Origin: Desulfotignum sp.
GTDB taxonomy: Bacteria; Desulfobacterota; Desulfobacteria; Desulfobacterales; Desulfobacteraceae
NCBI GenBank assembly: GCA_021737695.1
Contig: JAIPDL010000008.1
Coordinates: 1 to 64,000 of the forward strand
DNA: 64,000 nucleotides
Direction: 5' to 3'
Shown one piece after another: positions 28,358 to 39,488 of this stretch. Within the stretch, counting starts at the first letter, position 1; every line of letters starts with the position of its first letter. The position numbers were made by a program, and so were the translations under genes. The notes below the pieces were generated by a model. That model worked only from the letters and a program-made list of their open reading frames with translations. It searched no databases and was not told the DNA's origin.

Positions 28358-29788
28358 ATGACCATATCCATTGGAGGGCTGATGTCCGGCCTGGATACCA
28401 ACGGAATCATCGACCAGATGCTTGCGATACAGCAGAGGCCCATTGAACGCCTGCAAAGCAAAGGGTCGGAATACCAGATCCAGTTAAGCACCTATGGCAC
28501 TTTGAAAGGAATGGTTTCCAGTCTTCAGGGTGCGGTGTCTGCCATTGATACTGAAGGGGAGCTGGCGTCCTACACCGCGACTTCCGGAGATAAGGACCTT
28601 TTTACCGTGACGTCCGGAGATGATGCGGCAGTGGGGTCCTATGACGTGACCGTGCAGCAGCTGGCAAAAGTACATAAACTGACCAGCACCGCTTTTGCGG
28701 CCGATGAAGCTATCGGGGAAGGGACCATCCATCTCAAGGTGGGGGATGCCGAGGCGGTCGATATCGCTGTGTCTGCCACAGATACCTATGATGACGTGGC
28801 ATCGGCCATCAACGATGCGGATGCCGGGGTTAAGGCGGCGGTCGTGTTTGACGGAACCGATTATTATCTGACCCTGTCTGCGGAAGAAACCGGGGCCGAC
28901 AATGTCATCAATCTGACGGTGACCGAAGCGGGAACCTCGTCCGGCGATCCGGAGAACTCAGATACCACGGGACTCTCCCGACTGGTTTTCGATCATGGTG
29001 TCACCACGAACCTTAGCAATACCCAGAATCCGGCTGATGCCATTATCACTGTGGACGGGGTGTCCAATATCATGCGGAGCAGCAATGAGATCGATGATGT
29101 GATCAATGGGGTAACATTGACCCTGGTGTCGGCACCGGCATCCCCGGACAATGCCACCACCCTGACGGTGAGCAGAAACACCAGTGCGGCCAAGTCCAAG
29201 ATCAATGCGTTTGTGAAAGCGTACAACCAGGTGGCCACATTTATCACCGAAGCCCAGAAATACACCGAAGATACCGAAGTAGCCGGCATCCTGATGGGGG
29301 ATGCCACCACCAACGGTATCCGCAGTCAGCTGAAATCCATGGTGACCGGATTGGTATCCGGTGCCGGCACCTTTAACCGGTTGTCGGATATCGGCATCAC
29401 CCTTGGCAGTGACAATCAGTTGAAAGTGGACACAGATACTCTGGATGATGCGCTGGACAACCATTTCGAGGATGTGGCTCAGTTTTTTACCCAGTCGACT
29501 TCAGAAGCCCCGGGATTTGCTGTTAAAATGAATGAAACCCTGGATGCGATGCTTGACAGCACAACCGGGACGTTTGCATCCCGTGAGGACGGAATTAAGA
29601 ATTCCATTGACAGTATCAATGATCAGATTCAGCAGCAACAGTTGCGGACAGCCCTGTGGGAGGAACGGACCCGGGCCCAGTTCAATGCCATGGAAGCGCT
29701 GCTGGCCCAGTATCAGTCTGCAGGCGATTACCTGGGACAGTTCGTCACCGGCATGCAGAACCTGAACAGTTTTGTTTCCAATAGATAA
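28358..29788 (+). CDS. fliD: Flagellar filament cap protein FliD
   Basis: FliD caps the filament and guides flagellin folding. From the ATG at 28358 (GGGGAG upstream) it has 476 residues. The N-terminus (ISIGGLMSGLDTNGIIDQMLAIQQRPIERL) is the FliD_N signature. YDVTVQQLAKVHKLTSTAF follows, and the C-terminal FliD domain has KSKINAFVKAYNQVATFI and FNAMEALLAQYQSAGDYL. A longer frame from 28265 would start inside the promoter. Confidence 0.94.
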   Translation: MTISIGGLMSGLDTNGIIDQMLAIQQRPIERLQSKGSEYQIQLSTYGTLKGMVSSLQGAVSAIDTEGELASYTATSGDKDLFTVTSGDDAAVGSYDVTVQQLAKVHKLTSTAFAADEAIGEGTIHLKVGDAEAVDIAVSATDTYDDVASAINDADAGVKAAVVFDGTDYYLTLSAEETGADNVINLTVTEAGTSSGDPENSDTTGLSRLVFDHGVTTNLSNTQNPADAIITVDGVSNIMRSSNEIDDVINGVTLTLVSAPASPDNATTLTVSRNTSAAKSKINAFVKAYNQVATFITEAQKYTEDTEVAGILMGDATTNGIRSQLKSMVTGLVSGAGTFNRLSDIGITLGSDNQLKVDTDTLDDALDNHFEDVAQFFTQSTSEAPGFAVKMNETLDAMLDSTTGTFASREDGIKNSIDSINDQIQQQQLRTALWEERTRAQFNAMEALLAQYQSAGDYLGQFVTGMQNLNSFVSNR

Positions 29789-29830
29789 GCAATCGCCTGT
29801 CATGTTTTTGACGTATCCGGCATAATCCGA

Positions 29831-29851
29831 CACCGGGGCTGCCTGCTGCCT
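29831..29851. repeat. Copy 1 of ACCGGGG(C/T)GGCCTGCTGCC-type repeat
   Basis: This short GC-rich sequence, with variants, occurs five times in the accessory island, always beside an ATPase or Rpn gene. This copy lies upstream of ATPase gene 1 and is shortened (CACCGGGGCTGCCTGCTGCC). Confidence 0.65.
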
Positions 29852-29885
29852 CGGACGTCACTGCCTGATCCTTCCGGTTTTTCGC

Positions 29886-29914
29886 TTGACTGTCCCACCC
29901 GGGCCGGGTAGAAT
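29886..29914 (+). promoter_or_regulatory. Sigma-70-type promoter of ATPase-nuclease gene 1
   Basis: TTGACT, 17 bases, TAGAAT. The same boxes and an identical spacer with a CCCGGGCCGGG palindrome occur before ATPase gene 2, so selection or recent duplication has kept it. It lies 47 bases before the start codon. Confidence 0.75.
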
Positions 29915-29960
29915 TTATCGTGTGTATGACATTGTCAAAAACCCATCGAAAGTGTCAGAT

Positions 29961-31592
29961 ATGAGATTTTTCAATACCGCCGGGCCGGTGAACTGCGACG
30001 ACCATTACTGCCTGCCGCCCCTGGAGCGGTTTGATCTGGCAGAGATCGAGATGCTCCTGGCGCAGAAAAAGTATTTTGTGCTGCACGCCCCGCGGCAGAC
30101 GGGCAAGACCACGTCCATGCTGGCGCTGGTGGATCATTTAAACGTCGGCGGGCAGTACCGGGCCCTGTACTGCAATGTGGAGACGGCCCAGACGGCCCGG
30201 GAAGATGTGGCCAAGGGGATGCAGAACATCCTGGTGGAGCTGGGAGAGCGTGCGGCAAATGATCTGAAAGACGACTTTCTGTCTGAAAACGGATCAAAAA
30301 TATTGTTCGAATATGGTGAACATGCCGCACTGAAAATGGCTTTAACCCGGTTCTGCCAGTCAAGTGACCTGCCGGTGGTGCTGGTGCTCGATGAGATCGA
30401 TGCCCTGGTGGGAGATACCTTGATTTCCGTGTTGCGGCAGATCCGCTCGGGTTATCCCCAGCGTCCCGGTCAGTTTCCATCGTCCATTGTTTTGTGCGGT
30501 GTGCGGGATGTCAGGGATTACCGGATCCATTCGGGCAGCGGCCAAGAGATCATCACCGGCGGCAGCGCATTCAACATCAAGGCAAAATCCCTGCGCATGG
30601 GAGATTTCGTAAAACAAGAAGTGGGCCTGCTCCTGCAGCAGCACACCGTTGGGACCGGGCAGGCGTTCACCCCGGATGCCGTCGCCTGCATCTGGCATCT
30701 GAGCCAGGGGCAGCCCTGGCTGGTCAACGCCCTGGCCTATGAGGTCTGTTTTGAGATGAAGGTCGGGCAAGACCGGACCCGGCCCATTGACAAGGAGATG
30801 GTGGATCAGGCAAAGGAAAACCTGATCCTCCGGCGGGAGACCCACCTGGACCAGCTGGCGGACAAGCTTCAGGAGGAGCGGGTCCATATAGTAATTGCAG
30901 GACTTTTGGGAGGTCAGGCATCGGTGGCAGGCAATCTGCCTGAAGATGATATCCAGTATGTGACTGATCTGGGGTTGATCCGCAGCAAACCCCAGATTGC
31001 CATTGCCAACCCTATTTACCGGGAAATCATTCCCCGGATGTTGACATACAGCACCCAGGTCTCCCTGAACCACCAGACCGCGTGGTACATCACCCCGGAC
31101 CACCGGCTGGACATGGACAAGCTCATGGCGGCATTTCAGGAATTTTTCCAGGAGCATTCAGCGCACTGGCTGGAGCGGTTCCAGTACAAGGAAGCCGGAC
31201 CCCAGCTGCTGCTCCAGGCGTTTCTCCAGCGGATCATCAATTCCGGTGGGCGCATCGAGCGGGAATATGGCCTGGGAAGGCAGCGGGTGGATCTGCTGGT
31301 GATGTGGCCCCTGGAGACGGAAGAAGCAGTGACAAAAGCGGGACGGCCGGCATGGACCCGGTGGCAGGGGCCGGTGCAGAAAGTGGTGGTGGAACTGAAA
31401 GTACTGCATAAAAGCCTGGAAAACACCATTGCCAAGGGCCTGGACCAGACCCGCACCTACATGGACTCCTGCGGCACCACAGACGGCCACCTGGTGATTT
31501 TTAACCGGGATCCCGATGTCCCCTGGGAACACAAGATCTTTCATCGCACTGACACCTGCCGGGGAATTCCCATCCAGATCTGGGGGATGTAG
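29961..31592 (+). CDS. AAA-type ATPase with C-terminal PD-(D/E)XK domain, copy 1
   Basis: The N-terminal ATPase has Walker A HAPRQTGKTTSML near residues 35-47 and Walker B PVVLVLDEIDAL near residue 140, as in AAA_35-type proteins. The C-terminal part has REYGLGRQRVDLLVMWP and, after about 25 residues, KVVVELKVLHK, which fits the D and E-x-K of PD-(D/E)XK nucleases. It has 543 residues, the same as copy 2 (34703-36334), and most of the two sequences are identical. The start MRFFNTAGPVN is shared by both, which fixes it. An Rpn-type gene follows on the opposite strand. Function is unknown; a role in DNA handling, defence or mobility is inferred. Confidence 0.8.
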   Translation: MRFFNTAGPVNCDDHYCLPPLERFDLAEIEMLLAQKKYFVLHAPRQTGKTTSMLALVDHLNVGGQYRALYCNVETAQTAREDVAKGMQNILVELGERAANDLKDDFLSENGSKILFEYGEHAALKMALTRFCQSSDLPVVLVLDEIDALVGDTLISVLRQIRSGYPQRPGQFPSSIVLCGVRDVRDYRIHSGSGQEIITGGSAFNIKAKSLRMGDFVKQEVGLLLQQHTVGTGQAFTPDAVACIWHLSQGQPWLVNALAYEVCFEMKVGQDRTRPIDKEMVDQAKENLILRRETHLDQLADKLQEERVHIVIAGLLGGQASVAGNLPEDDIQYVTDLGLIRSKPQIAIANPIYREIIPRMLTYSTQVSLNHQTAWYITPDHRLDMDKLMAAFQEFFQEHSAHWLERFQYKEAGPQLLLQAFLQRIINSGGRIEREYGLGRQRVDLLVMWPLETEEAVTKAGRPAWTRWQGPVQKVVVELKVLHKSLENTIAKGLDQTRTYMDSCGTTDGHLVIFNRDPDVPWEHKIFHRTDTCRGIPIQIWGM

Positions 31593-31624
31593 AAGGCCGG
31601 ACCGGTCATCTCCTGCACAGCGGA

Positions 31625-31653
31625 GCCCCCACCGGGGGCGGCCTGCTGCCTGG
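31625..31653. repeat. Copy 2 of palindromic repeat
   Basis: GCCCCC-ACC-GGGGGC forms a short hairpin, followed by GGCCTGCTGCC. It lies between the stops of ATPase gene 1 and the Rpn-like pseudogene. Confidence 0.65.
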
Positions 31654-31659
31654 CGGGTT

Positions 31660-32426
31660 TTATGCCGGGTCTTCGGCCGTCAGTTCTTCCAGGGTTTTTC
31701 TGAAATCGTCGATGTCTTTGCTTTGGAAGGTTGACCTGAGCAGTCGTTTCAGCATTACTTTATTGTTCAGCGCCTGTATCTGCTGCTTGATATCTGCCGG
31801 GGTGTCACTGCTGAACCTGGCATCCAGAGCTTCCAGTAACATTTCTCTGGCATTGTAAAGCATACCTTTGTCCATGCCTTCACTCCTTCCTTCAAGCCTC
31901 CCTTTCTCTATTCCTATTCTCTCGGCACTTGTTACATATGGCATTTTCTTTTCCTCCTCGTAGGCAATCAAATTTTGCGTAAACTGTTTGGTTAAATCAT
32001 GGGACAGCATCATCAGCCAGTCCACAAGGCGATACAGGCTCAGGATGTCTGTTGCGGAAAAGCCTTTTTCATAGAGCGCCCTGGTAATGGTCCATTTCCA
32101 GGTGTATCTTTCCAGTGGATTGTCTTTGGTTGCCTTTGTCTTTAAATGGGCCGCAGTAATGATGGCGAATGGGTTTGTGTGATCCAGCAGGTCATCGATT
32201 TTGTCAGCGTAGTCTATGAGCTTTACCCTTCTGCATGCCGTCTGCCGATTTCGGCATCCCGCACCACCTGCTGCAATTCTTTGTCAAGAAATTGATACCC
32301 TCTTTTCCAGGCGATTTCACGAGCGATGTCAGGAAAAAAGAACTGCATCAGTTCCTTGAAATACAGCTCCATCCCTTCTTTCCAGGGGCTGTCATAGTCA
32401 TCGGTATGATTTTTTTTCGTATCCAT
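31660..32426 (-). pseudogene. Rpn-family PD-(D/E)XK nuclease/transposase, internally deleted
   Basis: The sequence is a damaged copy of the intact gene at 33512-34483. The N-terminal 67 residues (MDTKKNHTDDYDSPWKEG to EIGRRHA) are present. Then about 240 bases are missing, and the sequence resumes at KLIDYADKIDDLL in another frame near 32223. The rest runs to the same C-terminus (FRKTLEELTAEDPA). The deleted part includes the nuclease core (HVMIHIEVQ). Copy 1 also has about 12 extra residues (GRLEGRSEGMDKG) near the C-terminus. It is convergent with ATPase gene 1. Confidence 0.8.
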
Positions 32427-32432
32427 ACGGCT

Positions 32433-32461
32433 ATTTTAATCAGATTGTCGGGATAAAGCAA
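32433..32461 (-). promoter_or_regulatory. Promoter of Rpn-like pseudogene, conserved with the intact copy
   Basis: On the minus strand TTGCTT, 17 bases, TAAAAT ends only six bases before the ATG. The intact copy has the same arrangement, so the transcript would be leaderless or nearly so. Confidence 0.6.
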
Positions 32462-32480
32462 GATTCAAAACGGGTTATGC

Positions 32481-32503
32481 CCGGGGGCGGCCTGCTGCCT
32501 GGC
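32481..32503. repeat. Copy 3 of GC-rich repeat
   Basis: CCGGGGGCGGCCTGCTGCCTGGC, next to the Rpn remnant at 32509-32601, in the same relative place as at the two longer Rpn copies. Confidence 0.6.
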
Positions 32504-32508
32504 AGGTT

Positions 32509-32601
32509 TTATGCCGGATCTTCGGCCGTCAGTTCTTCCAAAGCTTTTTTGAAGTCGTCGATGTCTTTGCTCTGGAAGGTAAATCTCACAGCCCCATTGC
32601 C
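32509..32601 (-). pseudogene. Remnant of a third Rpn-family gene
   Basis: Read on the minus strand, the end matches the C-terminus of the intact Rpn gene (FKKALEELTAEDPA and SKDIDDF). About 75 bases in, it jumps to the sequence that encodes CEIHF in the middle of the intact gene (TCTCACAGCCCCATTG on the plus strand). Everything between, and the N-terminal part, is lost. Confidence 0.7.
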
Positions 32602-32632
32602 CTGAACCACGGGCTTCAGAATGGTTGTTGTT

Positions 32633-32944
32633 CTATATTTCATAGGCGTCGTCATAAGGGCCGAGTAAAACGAATTTCAGCGTATCGTCCGATGTATCTC
32701 GACAATCTGAACAGGCGACTATGGCATTGTCTCCTTTTTTTCGGCACACGGCACAATACAGATAAATGATGATAAAATTACGTTTCACCGGACATGAATA
32801 AAACCCCTGCCAGTTTCTCTTCAACGGTTCACCCATGGCAATGGGGTTTTCAATGATCATGTGCACTTTCTTCTGGACCCGTTTTTTTATTGACGCATGC
32901 TTTTTAACGGATTTCAGAAACGCGGTTTCAAATTTTGTTTCCAT
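32633..32944 (-). CDS. RelE/YafQ-like toxin of a type II toxin-antitoxin pair
   Basis: This basic protein of 103 residues (METKFETAFLKSVKKHASIKK, then FYSCPVKRNFIIIYLYC and FVLLGPYDDAYEI) has the size, charge and strand pattern of the RelE/ParE superfamily. The residues CRKKGDNAIVACSDC carry four Cys and may bind a metal, which is unusual for RelE. The ATG overlaps the antitoxin stop (TGATG), typical of a coupled pair. Toxicity and mRNA cleavage are inferred from the family and setting. Confidence 0.72.
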   Translation of the reverse strand: METKFETAFLKSVKKHASIKKRVQKKVHMIIENPIAMGEPLKRNWQGFYSCPVKRNFIIIYLYCAVCRKKGDNAIVACSDCRDTSDDTLKFVLLGPYDDAYEI

Positions 32945-33201
32945 CACTCGCCAAAAACCGCATCGTATGAATGCCATTGTGCCGAACCTGTGCGTAGTCT
33001 GGCTTGAGCTTCTTCCATAGCCTGTTGAAACGCTGGATGAGCGAATATTGTTTCGACGTAATCACCATCGACGCGCCGTTTCAGGGCCAATAGGTATTGC
33101 GTGACCATATCGGCAACCGTTGTGCGGTTTTCAGTTGCAAAGATTTTGGCGAACTCGGCAAGATCCTTATCAAGACTGACATTGATTCGTGTTTTAGACA
33201 T
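32944..33201 (-). CDS. Ribbon-helix-helix antitoxin
   Basis: The 85-residue protein begins MSKTRINVSLDKDLAEFAKIFA, then NRTTVADMVTQYL, which is the RHH DNA-binding pattern of a plasmid-stability antitoxin. AGGGA lies seven bases before the ATG at 33201. It would bind its own promoter and neutralise the downstream toxin. Confidence 0.75.
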   Translation of the reverse strand: MSKTRINVSLDKDLAEFAKIFATENRTTVADMVTQYLLALKRRVDGDYVETIFAHPAFQQAMEEAQARLRTGSAQWHSYDAVFGE

Positions 33202-33300
33202 AATATTTCCCTTTTTAGTTGATTTGTTCCTATTGTGCACACGAAAAAAACTGGTGTCAAGTGACACTGGTTTTGGAGTCACCTATCAATCTGAAAAACA

Positions 33301-33380
33301 GCTATCTATCAGAACACGGGTTTAAAATATTACACGAATATGGTGAACATGATGCAATTCCGGGGGCAGGATCGAACTGA
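33301..33380 (+). pseudogene. Remnant of a third ATPase-nuclease gene
   Basis: YLSEHGFKILHEYGEHDA matches the region after the Walker A of the ATPases (DFLSENGSKILFEYGEHAA in copy 1). It is then joined directly to IPGAGSN, whose bases (AATTCCGGGGGCAGGATCGA) match the segment that encodes NSGGRIER near the nuclease domain of copy 2, read in a different frame. About 900 bases are missing. It shows that a third ATPase gene once stood next to the Rpn genes. Confidence 0.7.
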
Positions 33381-33485
33381 ATGCAAAAAAATCATGACCA
33401 CCCCTGTTGCCGGTTTGCGGTGACAGGGTTTTTTTCAGGAGACCCACAGACACCGCCCGGCACGGGCCGCTGAGGGCAGGGGGAA

Positions 33486-33506
33486 CGGGGCGGCCTGCTG
33501 CCTGGC
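33486..33506. repeat. Copy 4 of GC-rich repeat
   Basis: ACGGGGCGGCCTGCTGCCTGG directly follows the stop of the intact Rpn gene on its strand. Confidence 0.6.
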
Positions 33507-33511
33507 GGGTT

Positions 33512-34483
33512 TTATGCCGGATCTTCGGCCGTCAGTTCTTCCAGGGTTTTTCTGAAGTCGTCGATGTCTTTGCTTTGGATGGTGGATCTGAGCAATTTTC
33601 TTAGCATTACCCGGTTGTTCAGATCCTTTATCAGTTTGTGAATGTCTGCCGGCACGTTGCTGCTGAATTTTGTATCCAGCGCCTCTAATACCATCTCTCT
33701 GGCTTCGTTGAGCTGACCTTTGTCCATTCCGATTCTTTCGGCACTTGTCACATATGGCATTTTCTTTTCCTCCTCATAGGCAATCAAATTTTTTGTAAAC
33801 TGTTTTGTTAAATCATGGGGCAGCATCATCAGCCAGTCCACAAGGCGATACAGGCTCAGGATGTCTGTTGCGGAAAAGCCTTTTTCATAGAGCGCCCTGG
33901 TAATGGTCCATTTCCAGGTGTATCTTTCCTGTGGGTTGTCTTTGGTTGCCTTTGTCTTTAAATGGGCCGCAGTGATGATGGCGAATGGGTTTGTGTGATC
34001 CAGCAGGTCATCGATTTTGTCAGCGTAGTCTATGAGTTTTACCATGGGGAATTTAAAGTGGATCTCACAGCCCCATTGCTCCGAGGTATATCCATTCGGT
34101 CTCCAGGAACTGATTTCATCCGCCAGAATGGCTAGGCTGGTGACCGGCCGCTCACTTTTGTCAAAGATGCGGTAATTGTAAATGTACATCCGTCTAAGAA
34201 AGTCCGGGTCTTTGTCACTCTGAACCTCGATGTGGATCATGACATGGAACGGTTCATCCTCAAGGGACCACACCTTGACAAGCTTGTCGGCATGCTTTCT
34301 CCCGATCTCGGCATCCCGCACCACCTGCTGCAATTCTTTATCAAGAAATTCATATCCTCTTTTCCATGCGATTTCACGGGCGATGTCAGGAAAAAAGAAC
34401 TGCATCAGTTCCTTGAAATACAGCTCCATCCCTTCTTTCCAGGGGCTGTCATAGTCATCGTTATGATTTTCTGTCGTATCCAT
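33512..34483 (-). CDS. Rpn-family recombination-promoting nuclease/putative transposase
   Basis: The protein has 323 residues and belongs to the Rpn/PD-(D/E)XK nuclease family transposases. The N-terminus (YDSPWKEGMELYFKELMQFFFPDIAREIAWKRGY) and core (KLVKVWSLEDEPFHVMIHIEVQSDKDPDFLRRMYIYNYRI) show E-x-Q in place of E-x-K, which is usual for this family. The C-terminal half (MPYVTSAERIG, then the helical ending) is typical. A promoter lies immediately upstream and leaves almost no leader. Family members cut DNA and promote RecA-independent recombination, and here the gene may explain the rearrangements around it. Confidence 0.82.
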   Translation of the reverse strand: MDTTENHNDDYDSPWKEGMELYFKELMQFFFPDIAREIAWKRGYEFLDKELQQVVRDAEIGRKHADKLVKVWSLEDEPFHVMIHIEVQSDKDPDFLRRMYIYNYRIFDKSERPVTSLAILADEISSWRPNGYTSEQWGCEIHFKFPMVKLIDYADKIDDLLDHTNPFAIITAAHLKTKATKDNPQERYTWKWTITRALYEKGFSATDILSLYRLVDWLMMLPHDLTKQFTKNLIAYEEEKKMPYVTSAERIGMDKGQLNEAREMVLEALDTKFSSNVPADIHKLIKDLNNRVMLRKLLRSTIQSKDIDDFRKTLEELTAEDPA

Positions 34484-34489
34484 ACGGCT

Positions 34490-34518
34490 ATTTTAATCAG
34501 ATTATCGGGATAAAGCAA
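34490..34518 (-). promoter_or_regulatory. Promoter of the intact Rpn gene, near-leaderless
   Basis: On the minus strand TTGCTT, 17 bases, TAAAAT, then only six bases to the ATG at 34483. No ribosome binding site is present upstream, so initiation on a leaderless transcript is likely. Confidence 0.62.
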
Positions 34519-34556
34519 GATTCAAAAAACTGACCGTGTCTGGGATACTTTTACCC

Positions 34557-34593
34557 GGCAGCAAGGCACCCCCACCGGGGGTGGCCTGCTGCC
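34557..34593. repeat. Copy 5, full palindrome of the GC-rich repeat
   Basis: GGCAGCAAGGCACCCCC, a three-base loop ACC, and GGGGGTGGCCTGCTGCC form a near-perfect 17-bp hairpin. The central stem differs from copy 2 by paired changes. It lies upstream of ATPase gene 2. It resembles a REP-type element. Confidence 0.75.
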
Positions 34594-34627
34594 TCGAACG
34601 CCATTGCATGCTCTCCCCGGTTTTGCC

Positions 34628-34656
34628 TTGACTGTCCCACCCGGGCCGGGTAGAAT
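34628..34656 (+). promoter_or_regulatory. Sigma-70-type promoter of ATPase-nuclease gene 2
   Basis: TTGACT, 17 bases, TAGAAT, identical in boxes and spacer to the site before copy 1. It is 47 bases from the start codon. Confidence 0.75.
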
Positions 34657-34702
34657 TTTATCATGACTGCGGCGACCATTTTTATGGGGGTGACATACTG
34701 AT

Positions 34703-36334
34703 ATGAGATTTTTCAACACAGCCGGGCCGGTGAATCAAGCCAAGCATTATACCGTTCCACCATTGGAGCGGTTTGATCTTTCTGAAATTGAAACGCTGAT
34801 TGCCCAGGAAAAGTATTTTGTACTGCACGCCCCGCGGCAGACGGGTAAGACCTCATCTATGCTGGCGCTGGTGGATCACTTGAATGCGAATAAAAATTAC
34901 CGGGCCCTTTACTGCAATGTGGAGACGGCCCAGACGGCCAGAGAAGATGTGGCCAAGGGGATAAAAAGTATTCTGGTGACGTTGGGTAACCGGGCGGCCA
35001 ATGATCTGGATGATGATTATTTGTCCCAGAATTGGAAAGATATTCTGGCCGAATGTGGCGAGCATGATGCCCTGACCGTTTCATTGACCCGGTTCAGCCA
35101 GGCAAATGACCTGCCGTTGGTGCTGGTAATCGATGAGGTCGATGCCCTGGTGGGGGACACCTTGATTTCCGTGCTGCGGCAGATCCGCTCGGGTTATCCC
35201 CAGCGTCCCGGTCAGTTTCCATCGTCCATTGTGCTTTGCGGGGTGAGGGATGTCCGGGATTACCGGATACATTCAGGCAGCGGCAAAGAGATCATCACCG
35301 GCGGCAGCGCGTTCAATATCAAGGCAAAATCCTTGCGCATGGGGGATTTTGTAAAAACAGAGGTGGGCCTTCTCCTGGCCCGGCACACCCATGAAACCGG
35401 TCAGAAATTTACCCCGGATGCCGTTGCCTGTATCTGGCACTTAAGCCAGGGGCAGCCCTGGCTGGTCAATGCCCTGGCCTATGAGGTCTGTTTTGAGATG
35501 AAGGACGGGCGGGACCGGACCCGGTCCATTGACAAGGAGATGGTGGAACAGGCAAAGGAAAACCTGATCTTCCGGCGGGAGACCCACCTGGACCAGCTGG
35601 CGGACAAGCTCCGGGAGAGCCGTGTCCACGGCGTTATTGAAGGGGTTTTGAGCGGCCGGGCCGAAGTGGCAGGCAACCTGCCTGAAGACGATATCCAGTA
35701 TGTGACCGACCTGGGGTTGATCCGTCGCAAACCCCAGGTGGCCATTGCCAATCCCATTTATCGGGAAATCATTCCCCGGATGCTCACCGCTTCCACCCAG
35801 GATACCCTGAGCCACCAGGCCGCGTGGTATATCACCCCGGACCACCGGCTGGACATGGACAAACTCATGACGGCATTCCAGGAATTTTTCCAGGAACATT
35901 CAGCGCACTGGCTGGAGCGGTTCCAGTACAAGGAAGCCGGCCCCCAGCTCCTGCTCCAGGCCTTTCTCCAAAGGATCATCAATTCCGGGGGCAGGATCGA
36001 ACGGGAATACGGCTTGGGAAGGCAGCGGGTGGATTTGCTGGTGATGTGGCCCCTGGAGCCGGAGGAAGCGGCCTTGCAGGCGGGCCGGCCTGCCTGGACA
36101 AGATGGCAGGGGCCGGTGCAAAAGGTGGTGGTGGAACTCAAGGTGCTGCACAAAGGGTTGGAACATACCATTGCCAAAGGCCTGGACCAGACCCGCGCCT
36201 ACATGGATTCCTGCGGCACCACAGACGGCCACCTCGTGATCTTCAACCGGGACCCGGATGTCCCCTGGGAAGAAAAGATCTTTCATCGCACCGACACCTG
36301 CCGGGGAATTCCTATCCGGATCTGGGGGATGTAG
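34703..36334 (+). CDS. AAA-type ATPase with C-terminal PD-(D/E)XK domain, copy 2
   Basis: The domain layout and length (543 residues) equal those of the copy at 29961. Walker A is HAPRQTGKTSSML, Walker B LPLVLVIDEVDAL, and the nuclease-like core has RQRVDLLVMWP and KVVVELKVLHK. Differences between the two copies cluster between residues about 75 and 125 (NAND-type region, NWKDILAECGEHDA here) and in a few surface positions, while the nuclease part is almost unchanged. This pattern suggests old duplication with possible diversification of the region after Walker A. The gene ends 11 bases before the stop of the convergent DUF5610-like gene. Confidence 0.8.
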   Translation: MRFFNTAGPVNQAKHYTVPPLERFDLSEIETLIAQEKYFVLHAPRQTGKTSSMLALVDHLNANKNYRALYCNVETAQTAREDVAKGIKSILVTLGNRAANDLDDDYLSQNWKDILAECGEHDALTVSLTRFSQANDLPLVLVIDEVDALVGDTLISVLRQIRSGYPQRPGQFPSSIVLCGVRDVRDYRIHSGSGKEIITGGSAFNIKAKSLRMGDFVKTEVGLLLARHTHETGQKFTPDAVACIWHLSQGQPWLVNALAYEVCFEMKDGRDRTRSIDKEMVEQAKENLIFRRETHLDQLADKLRESRVHGVIEGVLSGRAEVAGNLPEDDIQYVTDLGLIRRKPQVAIANPIYREIIPRMLTASTQDTLSHQAAWYITPDHRLDMDKLMTAFQEFFQEHSAHWLERFQYKEAGPQLLLQAFLQRIINSGGRIEREYGLGRQRVDLLVMWPLEPEEAALQAGRPAWTRWQGPVQKVVVELKVLHKGLEHTIAKGLDQTRAYMDSCGTTDGHLVIFNRDPDVPWEEKIFHRTDTCRGIPIRIWGM

Positions 36335-36344
36335 CGGGTCTGGA

Positions 36345-36869
36345 TCAGGCCACAACACCGCCCTGGGCCCAGGCATCCAGCTTCTCCATGACCGCGTCAT
36401 AGGTGTGGCTGGAAATATCTGGAAGACTGCCGCCCAGGGCCTGGGCCGCCATGTCAAATCCCTTGTCAATGCCTGCCTTGATCTGGTCCAGCTTTGCCGG
36501 ATCACTGCCTGCCAGGGCCACGGCTGCGGTTACGATGCGGTCCGAGGTCTGTGCCACACCGAAATATCCATCTTCCGCAATTAAATCCTGTGCCTGTTCC
36601 GGCGTGAGGTCCTGAAAATCGATGGTGGTGTCATCCGTGGCGATGCGTGCGGACAGGCCCTGTTCCTTGAACAGGTTGACGATCATCTGGCGCAGGTTGT
36701 CCGTGCTGTTCGGGGCATAGGTGCCGGGCGCGGCCGAAGGGCGGTTCAACGAGAGCGTATCCAAGGCCGTTGCTTTTTCCGGGCCAGGCGCCGTGTTTTT
36801 GACGGAGCTATCCGGGCCTTGTTTCTGATACGCCGCCATAGAATCGACGGAACCGATCTGGGTAATCAT
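36345..36869 (-). CDS. DUF5610-like conserved protein
   Basis: The C-terminal 110 residues (LTPEQAQDLIAEDGYFGVAQTSDRI, then LAGSDPAKLDQIKAGIDKGF and DISSHTYDAVMEKLDAW) match a family seen next to flagellar genes in desulfobacteria, sometimes labelled hydrogenase-4 component G in databases without evidence. The first 60 residues are low in structure. The ATG at 36869 has AGGAGG eight bases upstream. A sigma-28-type promoter precedes it. The role is unknown, but the promoter suggests a late flagellar gene. 174 residues. Confidence 0.7.
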   Translation of the reverse strand: MITQIGSVDSMAAYQKQGPDSSVKNTAPGPEKATALDTLSLNRPSAAPGTYAPNSTDNLRQMIVNLFKEQGLSARIATDDTTIDFQDLTPEQAQDLIAEDGYFGVAQTSDRIVTAAVALAGSDPAKLDQIKAGIDKGFDMAAQALGGSLPDISSHTYDAVMEKLDAWAQGGVVA

Positions 36870-36926
36870 GGTCATAACCTCCTGCGGTGTGACAGGTTCT
36901 GTTTGGTTTCTCAACATTCTATATAT

Positions 36927-36953
36927 ATTTCGGCAGATAAACTGAAATCTTAA
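36927..36953 (-). promoter_or_regulatory. Sigma-28-type promoter of the DUF5610-like gene
   Basis: On the minus strand TTAAGATT, 11 bases, GCCGAAAT. This has the standard FliA spacing. It is 58 bases before the start codon. Confidence 0.55.
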
Positions 36954-37018
36954 CATGTCATTGAATTTTTTTGCCTTGTTGACCGGTGAAAGCAGGCAAA
37001 ATTATATTTTTATTATTT

Positions 37019-38241: not shown

Positions 38242-38703
38242 ATGATACCCTCAGGATATGGCAGATACGCCAAAGCCGCAGTGGCTGTCGAAAAAAAAGA
38301 AGATATTCTGTTACTTCTCCTGGATGCCGCTTCCATGGATTTGAAAAAAGCCCGCATGGGAATTGAGGACAACAATCCCAAAGTTAAAGGAGAAAGTATT
38401 TCCAGGGCGATTTCCATCCTCACGGAACTGGACTGCGCGTTAGACCATGGCATCGGGACTGATATGACTGAAAATTTGTCACGGCTATACCATTTTGTCA
38501 TGGACCGGCTGACTTTTGCCAACCTGAAAAACGATCTGACCGCTATGGATGAAGCGGACCAGGTACTGGATCAAGTACATGATGCATTTAAAGAAGCGGT
38601 CAAGACCTATAAAGGGGATCAGCGACCGGAGTCAACGACATCCTATGAAAATGGAGAAGACACTTTTTCTCAAATGACGGGAAAGCTGTCCGTTGCTGTA
38701 TGA
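38242..38703 (+). CDS. fliS: Flagellar export chaperone FliS
   Basis: FliS binds flagellin and keeps it unfolded for export. The 153-residue protein shows the family pattern: GYGRYAKAAVAVEKKEDILLLLLDAASMDLKKAR, then GESISRAISILTELDCALDHGIGTDMTENLSRLYHFVMDRL. AAGGAA lies upstream of the ATG. It is longer at the C-terminus than most FliS (about 130 residues). It heads the late flagellar unit fliS-fliT-flaG. Confidence 0.93.
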   Translation: MIPSGYGRYAKAAVAVEKKEDILLLLLDAASMDLKKARMGIEDNNPKVKGESISRAISILTELDCALDHGIGTDMTENLSRLYHFVMDRLTFANLKNDLTAMDEADQVLDQVHDAFKEAVKTYKGDQRPESTTSYENGEDTFSQMTGKLSVAV

Positions 38704-39068: not shown

Positions 39069-39488
39069 ATGGCAATTGAAATAATGAATGCCCAGAGCAA
39101 AACTTACATGTCTTCGTCTGCCGGCATTCCACAGACCGGAGGAAACGGCGGCACTCCGGATCGGATCACGCCACCGCCCACAGATACGGCGGATAACGGG
39201 GTGGTGCAGCTGTTTCCCCAGGAAAAGAAACCAGCTTCTGAACAAGCCACCGGCAGTGCTGAACAGGTGTCGGCCATGGTGGAAGATCTTCAGGCATCCC
39301 TGGAAATGTTGCAGCAGAAAAATACCCAGTTGAATTTTTCGGTTCATGAAAAAACGGATCGGGTCATGGTACGGATTACAGACCAGAGTACCGGCGATGT
39401 GATCCGGGAGATCCCTTCGGAAGAGTTTCTGGATATGGCTGCCAAACTCCAGGAAATGGTGGGCCTGATGTTTGATGCGAAAATTTAG
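39069..39488 (+). CDS. flaG: FlaG family protein
   Basis: FlaG is linked to filament length control. This one has 139 residues, with an unstructured N-terminal half and the conserved C-terminal domain: QLNFSVHEKTDRVMVRITD, then TGDVIREIPSEEFLDMAAKLQE. The spacing of the conserved part is normal. The gene starts 40 bases after the FliT-like gene and probably shares its promoter. Confidence 0.9.
   Translation: MAIEIMNAQSKTYMSSSAGIPQTGGNGGTPDRITPPPTDTADNGVVQLFPQEKKPASEQATGSAEQVSAMVEDLQASLEMLQQKNTQLNFSVHEKTDRVMVRITDQSTGDVIREIPSEEFLDMAAKLQEMVGLMFDAKI

Follow-up and report, generated by a model that had tools for sequence, protein, structure and literature searches.

Array-forming ATPase-nuclease and Rpn genes side by side among the flagellar genes of a Desulfotignum species

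Results

An island of 6.5 kb, holding nuclease and toxin genes, lies among the flagellar genes of Desulfotignum sp. in the stretch of DNA analysed here (positions 1-64,000 of contig JAIPDL010000008.1, assembly GCA_021737695.1; hereafter the window, G000:C92 in our labelling, part of a Desulfotignum-like metagenome-assembled genome). It is bounded by fliD on the left and by the fliS/flaG side on the right, and contains two intact genes for an ATPase with a C-terminal PD-(D/E)XK nuclease domain (copies a and b), one intact gene of the Rpn nuclease family, a broken rpn copy, and scraps of both families. A sequence-only reading of the window had raised the possibility of a two-component system made up of the ATPase and Rpn. 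Our analysis points, with good confidence, to a recombination hotspot occupied by independently spreading, array-forming nuclease genes, the ATPase and Rpn being neighbours and not partners. The parts are of known kinds, and they make up no new system.

The neighbourhood count, named beforehand as decisive, revealed no link between the two families. Public genomes supplied 28 ATPase loci, of which only one has a window-type Rpn gene nearby; that locus (L028) is the same island in the congener G003. Seven genomes carry several copies of both families, with no ATPase-Rpn pair within about 7 kb; the closest pairs, in G127 and G129, are about 8 and about 9 kb apart. The annotated plasmid neighbourhoods of ATPase relatives contained an Rpn gene in 0 of 7 cases. 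At the level of whole genomes, 60 of 291 genomes of the order carry the ATPase, 55 carry Rpn and 41 carry both, giving an odds ratio of 33. The control family Uma2 gave odds ratios of 50 with the ATPase and 43 with Rpn. As the co-occurrence of ATPase and Rpn is no higher than that with Uma2, it marks genomes that accumulate such families, and we rejected it as unspecific support for a pairing. The association of ATPase and Rpn persists among genomes without Uma2 (6 genomes, where about 1 was expected; p 8e-5, phylogeny not corrected for).

Each family also forms arrays of its own. Head-to-tail ATPase arrays of three to four copies occur in G038, G073 and G096, with the tightest gaps at 25-160 nt, and Rpn arrays without the ATPase occur in G061, G129, G127 and G034. 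In the tree the array copies are mutual nearest relatives (98/90 for copies a and b of the window, 100 for the G073 and G096 arrays; the G038 array groups with G135), and were therefore made by local duplication. Within the genus, sampled by 13 members of which the named relatives are Desulfotignum metagenome-assembled genomes (MAGs), a second site lies by a 227-aa gene beside gatB. This site holds an ATPase in G004, G009 and G007, and in G002 a PF04754 Rpn gene (190 bits) together with a truncated copy. A single site that can receive one family or the other speaks for shared hotspots and against partnership.

The two ATPase genes had been described as equal in length and highly similar, and they are: both encode 543 aa, with 86% amino acid identity. 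The ratio of nonsynonymous to synonymous substitution rates (dN/dS) is 0.17 between them, 0.12-0.17 when either is compared with relatives, and 0.12-0.19 across copies and relatives, and the intact copies are therefore maintained. Synonymous divergence between a and b is uneven, from 0.00 to 0.74 per 30-codon block, a patchiness that suggests gene conversion. Residue conservation was assessed across 33 homologues, which come from Desulfobacterota, Aminicenantes, Gammaproteobacteria and Lentisphaerota. Invariant among them are A43, P44, G48, K49 and T50 of Walker A, D144 and E145 of Walker B, and E435, D444 and E478xK480 of the nuclease domain; Q496 is present in at least 90%. Residues 1-366 of the structure model (mean confidence score, pLDDT, 82) match the archaeal ATPases 2qen (Z 15.7) and 2fna (Z 14.4), and also ORC/Cdc6; a sequence search among solved structures gave no significant match for either the ATPase or the Rpn family. 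From these residues we infer that the ATPase is probably an NTP-controlled DNA nuclease, perhaps defensive.

Relatives at 39-42% identity are found on cyanobacterial plasmids, and two plasmid-borne relatives adjoin the DISARM gene drmA or a phosphorothioation-associated gene. No phage record encoding the ATPase was found. Chromosomal neighbours include housekeeping genes (mutL, gatB and queuosine genes); the chromosomal flanks showed no recurrent defence system, with PADLOC hits merely scattered, and a defence-island context for the ATPase was rejected on this ground. Some further observations concern the family more widely. On two Pseudanabaena plasmids (L206 and L212) a tyrosine recombinase lies 12 nt downstream of the ATPase relative, while in L210 purT lies in between. 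G129 carries about nine and about six head-to-tail copies of distant ATPase relatives, spaced about 1.64 kb apart (L151, G129:C1:5136500-5156000; L152, 288500-307500). Locus L159 (G047:C3:463528-465798) holds concatenated pieces of the ATPase module, partly in one open frame of 531 codons.

The closest described counterparts of the ATPase are the DUF1703 proteins, which consist of an AAA-ATPase_like domain (PF09820), a helical linker and a C-terminal PD-(D/E)XK domain (PDDEXK_9, PF08011; PMC1913061). The window ATPase shares this domain order, an atypical arginine-bearing Walker A (APRQTGKT, compare RPRRFGKS) and nuclease motifs I-IV (E, D, ExK, Q). It also shares copy-number expansion and horizontal transfer, the DUF1703 genes of Cardinium being expanded and recombining (PMC6387759). 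Tight head-to-tail arrays, in contrast, are not mentioned in the portions of the two papers at hand. A further difference is that the window proteins lie below the Pfam cut-offs, their N-terminus being called AAA_35 or AAA_22. Copy a scores 11.4 bits against PF09820 (cut-off 26.1) with no PF08011 match listed, and for copy b neither model is listed at E 0.1; weak matches among the relatives number 28 of 33 for PF09820 and 4 of 33 for PF08011. Because the window proteins fall below these cut-offs we class them as DUF1703-like, and not as members.

The Rpn genes resemble a published system. In E. coli, rpn encodes a toxic endonuclease, RpnL, and, from an internal start, a C-terminal inhibitor, RpnS (Zhong et al., PMC10327210); tetrapeptide repeats of varying number follow the RpnS start, rpn genes form tandem arrays, and rpnS may stand alone (PMC10327210). 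The window family has the PD-(D/E)XK-type core residues (D, E-x-Q) of Rpn (YhgA-like, COG5464, PF04754; PMC10327210, PMC5350276), and among 30 relatives of the window Rpn D66 and Q88 are invariant and E86 is retained in at least 90%. The nuclease residues are thus kept in both families and have not been lost. The internal start is conserved, with AGGAGG in 29 of the 30 relatives (CGGAGG in one) and ATG in 29 (GTG in one); a perfect AGGAGG precedes none of the 210 other in-frame Met codons. As in the Rpn intragenic toxin-antitoxin, this AGGAGG-ATG start would give a C-terminal product, here of 82-96 aa. Further likenesses are the variable count of 4-aa repeats soon (8-20 residues) after the RpnS start, with 0-3 extra repeats across the genus and more in G061, and the tandem arrays and standalone rpnS frames. 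The difference lies in detection: the window Rpn matched neither PF04754 nor any other Pfam or NCBIfam model, PF04754 was matched by 6 of the 30 relatives (best E 0.005), and the window protein belongs to a divergent branch common in Desulfobacterota. The Rpn model had no significant match in a fold search of the PDB. By analogy with E. coli we infer that the window Rpn may act as a phage-defence toxin. The sequence-only reading knew of no described system with this pairing; the Rpn half is a described defence toxin-antitoxin (PMC10327210).

The rpn copy called deleted in that reading lacks residues ~68-146, and retains a 94-aa RpnS frame that has its own Shine-Dalgarno sequence and exceeds the intact gene by three tetrapeptide repeats. 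Broken rpn copies with an intact rpnS frame are present in several arrays. In E. coli RpnC, inhibition was lost on the addition of a single repeat (PMC10327210), and the 94-aa RpnS may therefore have no effect on the RpnL next to it. In a separate locus, L168 (G127:C1:46500-51500), two separate rpnS frames, one of 76 and one of 80 aa, come after an rpn gene, and each of the two has a Shine-Dalgarno sequence of its own.

The anatomy of the ATPase and Rpn copies and scraps between the flagellar genes, as first laid out, was confirmed on re-analysis; the features are listed in Table 1, in island order. The ATPase genes and the ATPase scrap lie on the + strand, the rpn copies and the toxin-antitoxin pair on the - strand. 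This pair (32633-33219) had been overlooked. It resembles a RelE/YafQ toxin with a DUF6364 antitoxin in its small, adjacent genes, and departs from that type in that the toxin lies under the curated cut-offs; it is a bystander in the island. Repeats within the island form blocks of 100-300 nt at 80-96% nucleotide identity, far above chance. The promoter-like block before ATPase a also precedes, in identical form, ATPase b (about 34627-34655) and the G003 copy; it was not found before the ATPase copies of the other congeners examined.

Table 1. Features of the island and its flanks (window positions).
Feature	Coordinates	Strand	Remarks
fliD, left flank	28361..29788	+	FliD_N E 5.5e-24, FliD_C E 2.7e-56
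Putative sigma-70-like promoter upstream of ATPase a	29885..29913	+	TTGACT-17 nt-TAGAAT; from sequence
ATPase-PD-(D/E)XK copy a	29961..31592	+	intact, 543 aa
rpn copy, toxin part broken	31660..32426	-	internal deletion and frameshift; identical junction in G003
rpnS frame within broken rpn copy	31660..31944	-	94 aa; AGGAGG + ATG, intact to stop
rpn C-terminal scrap	32509..32601	-	27-aa match at 32512-32592, 78% identity, E 5.4e-6
RelE/YafQ-like toxin gene	32633..32947	-	TIGR00053 E 1.7e-6, RelE_StbE E 1.3e-5, both under curated cut-offs
DUF6364 antitoxin-like gene, partner of the toxin	32947..33219	-	PF19891 30.3 bits, cut-off 27.3
ATPase scrap	33289..33377	+	residues ~101-123 fused to ~426-433; repeat families D7 and D9
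rpn (RpnL)	33512..34483	-	intact, 323 aa
Intragenic rpnS of intact rpn	33512..33760	-	82 aa; AGGAGG + ATG (M242)
ATPase-PD-(D/E)XK copy b	34703..36334	+	intact, 543 aa
Flank gene, right edge of island	36345..36956	-	weak DUF5610; from 36360 colinear with G003 (83%)
FliS, right side	at 38242		E 2e-27
FlaG, right side	at 39069		E 2e-27

In G003 the same toxin-antitoxin pair and scraps recur in a different arrangement; the toxin gene is broken there (L085), the ATPase scrap is slightly longer, and another rpn copy separates the end of an ATPase gene from the right flank. Identity between the two genomes is 91-96% in segments of the island and 83% in the right flank, and this higher identity of the island suggests that it was exchanged after the species split. 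The fliD of this locus is absent in the other congeners, and the assembly of G003 does not include the left flank.

Discussion

In the explanation that we favour, a small recombination hotspot bounded by fliD and the fliS/flaG side collects genes, each of which spreads and duplicates independently. DUF1703-like AAA-PD-(D/E)XK NTPase-nucleases have been tandemly duplicated, leaving two intact copies under purifying selection, and, judging from residues and relatives, NTP binding may control the ATPase's own nuclease domain. Full-length RpnL would be a DNA endonuclease under the restraint of RpnS, the C-terminal product translated separately, and would cut DNA on loss of this inhibition, as happens in E. 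coli. The adjacent rpn copy has lost its nuclease half while its rpnS is still open, and the RelE/YafQ-like pair would be a third component gathered in the hotspot. The placement of ATPase and Rpn side by side would reflect shared recombination hotspots and tandem duplication. An amplification followed by erosion, as first suggested, stands for both families; it does not extend to the two intact ATPases, which are not eroding, nor to the whole of the deleted rpn copy, with its open rpnS.

A two-component system with the ATPase as sensor or loader of DNA and Rpn as the cutting partner, amplified by the array, is very improbable. A locally duplicated ATPase-Rpn unit was correctly recognised, since the convergent order repeats in the window and also in G003, and the two families occur together in genomes. 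However, the adjacency is confined to this island in two congeners, the co-occurrence is not specific, G009 and G004 have the ATPase without an Rpn match and G002 has Rpn without an ATPase match, and the ATPase carries a complete nuclease domain of its own; on the neighbourhood counts and the Uma2 control we rejected the pairing. A grouping of Rpn, the ATPase-nuclease and the RelE/YafQ toxin-antitoxin as genes that all act against phages or plasmids, that is, a defence island, is a real possibility, though not the one we expect. Rpn protects E. coli against some phages (PMC10327210), the toxin-antitoxin pair is close by, and some plasmid-borne ATPase relatives have the defence-related neighbours described above, but the housekeeping genes beside chromosomal ATPases and the scattered PADLOC hits, none recurrent, speak against it.

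Rather unlikely, in our view, is that these are selfish or addiction elements without host benefit, the broken rpn copies with open rpnS being toxin-neutralising relics. The toxin-antitoxin behaviour of Rpn (PMC10327210), the several arrays that hold such copies and the patchy distribution of the families would fit, yet with its three additional repeats the RpnS of the broken copy may fail to neutralise its neighbour (PMC10327210), and selection specific to rpnS was not detected in the comparison of the window with G003. Unlikely, and put forward as speculation, is that the AAA-PD-(D/E)XK proteins are array-forming nucleases of an undescribed family, either defensive or selfish, whose single genes duplicate head to tail, exchange segments by gene conversion and spread across phyla and onto cyanobacterial plasmids, with adjacent rpn arrays as a reservoir of variant antitoxins in toxin-less copies with open rpnS.

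Some observations count against the hotspot explanation with its independent families and retained rpnS. Between the window and G003 the ratio of nonsynonymous to synonymous polymorphism (pN/pS) is 0.28 for the rpnS of the broken copy versus 0.12 for its upstream, presumably untranslated codons; this equal or stronger constraint upstream probably arose by recent exchange or gene conversion. A weak ATPase-like stretch of 18 residues (11 bits) lies near an Rpn scrap in G034. The genus-level data are draft MAGs, whose contigs are frequently broken inside these repeats.

The tempting two-component reading is settled as a chance neighbourhood. A branch of Rpn that escapes current family models has kept the internal start of RpnS, and an expanded family of ATPase-nucleases in sulfate reducers is brought to attention. 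The locus also calls for caution, in that an rpn copy that appears decayed may still encode an antitoxin.

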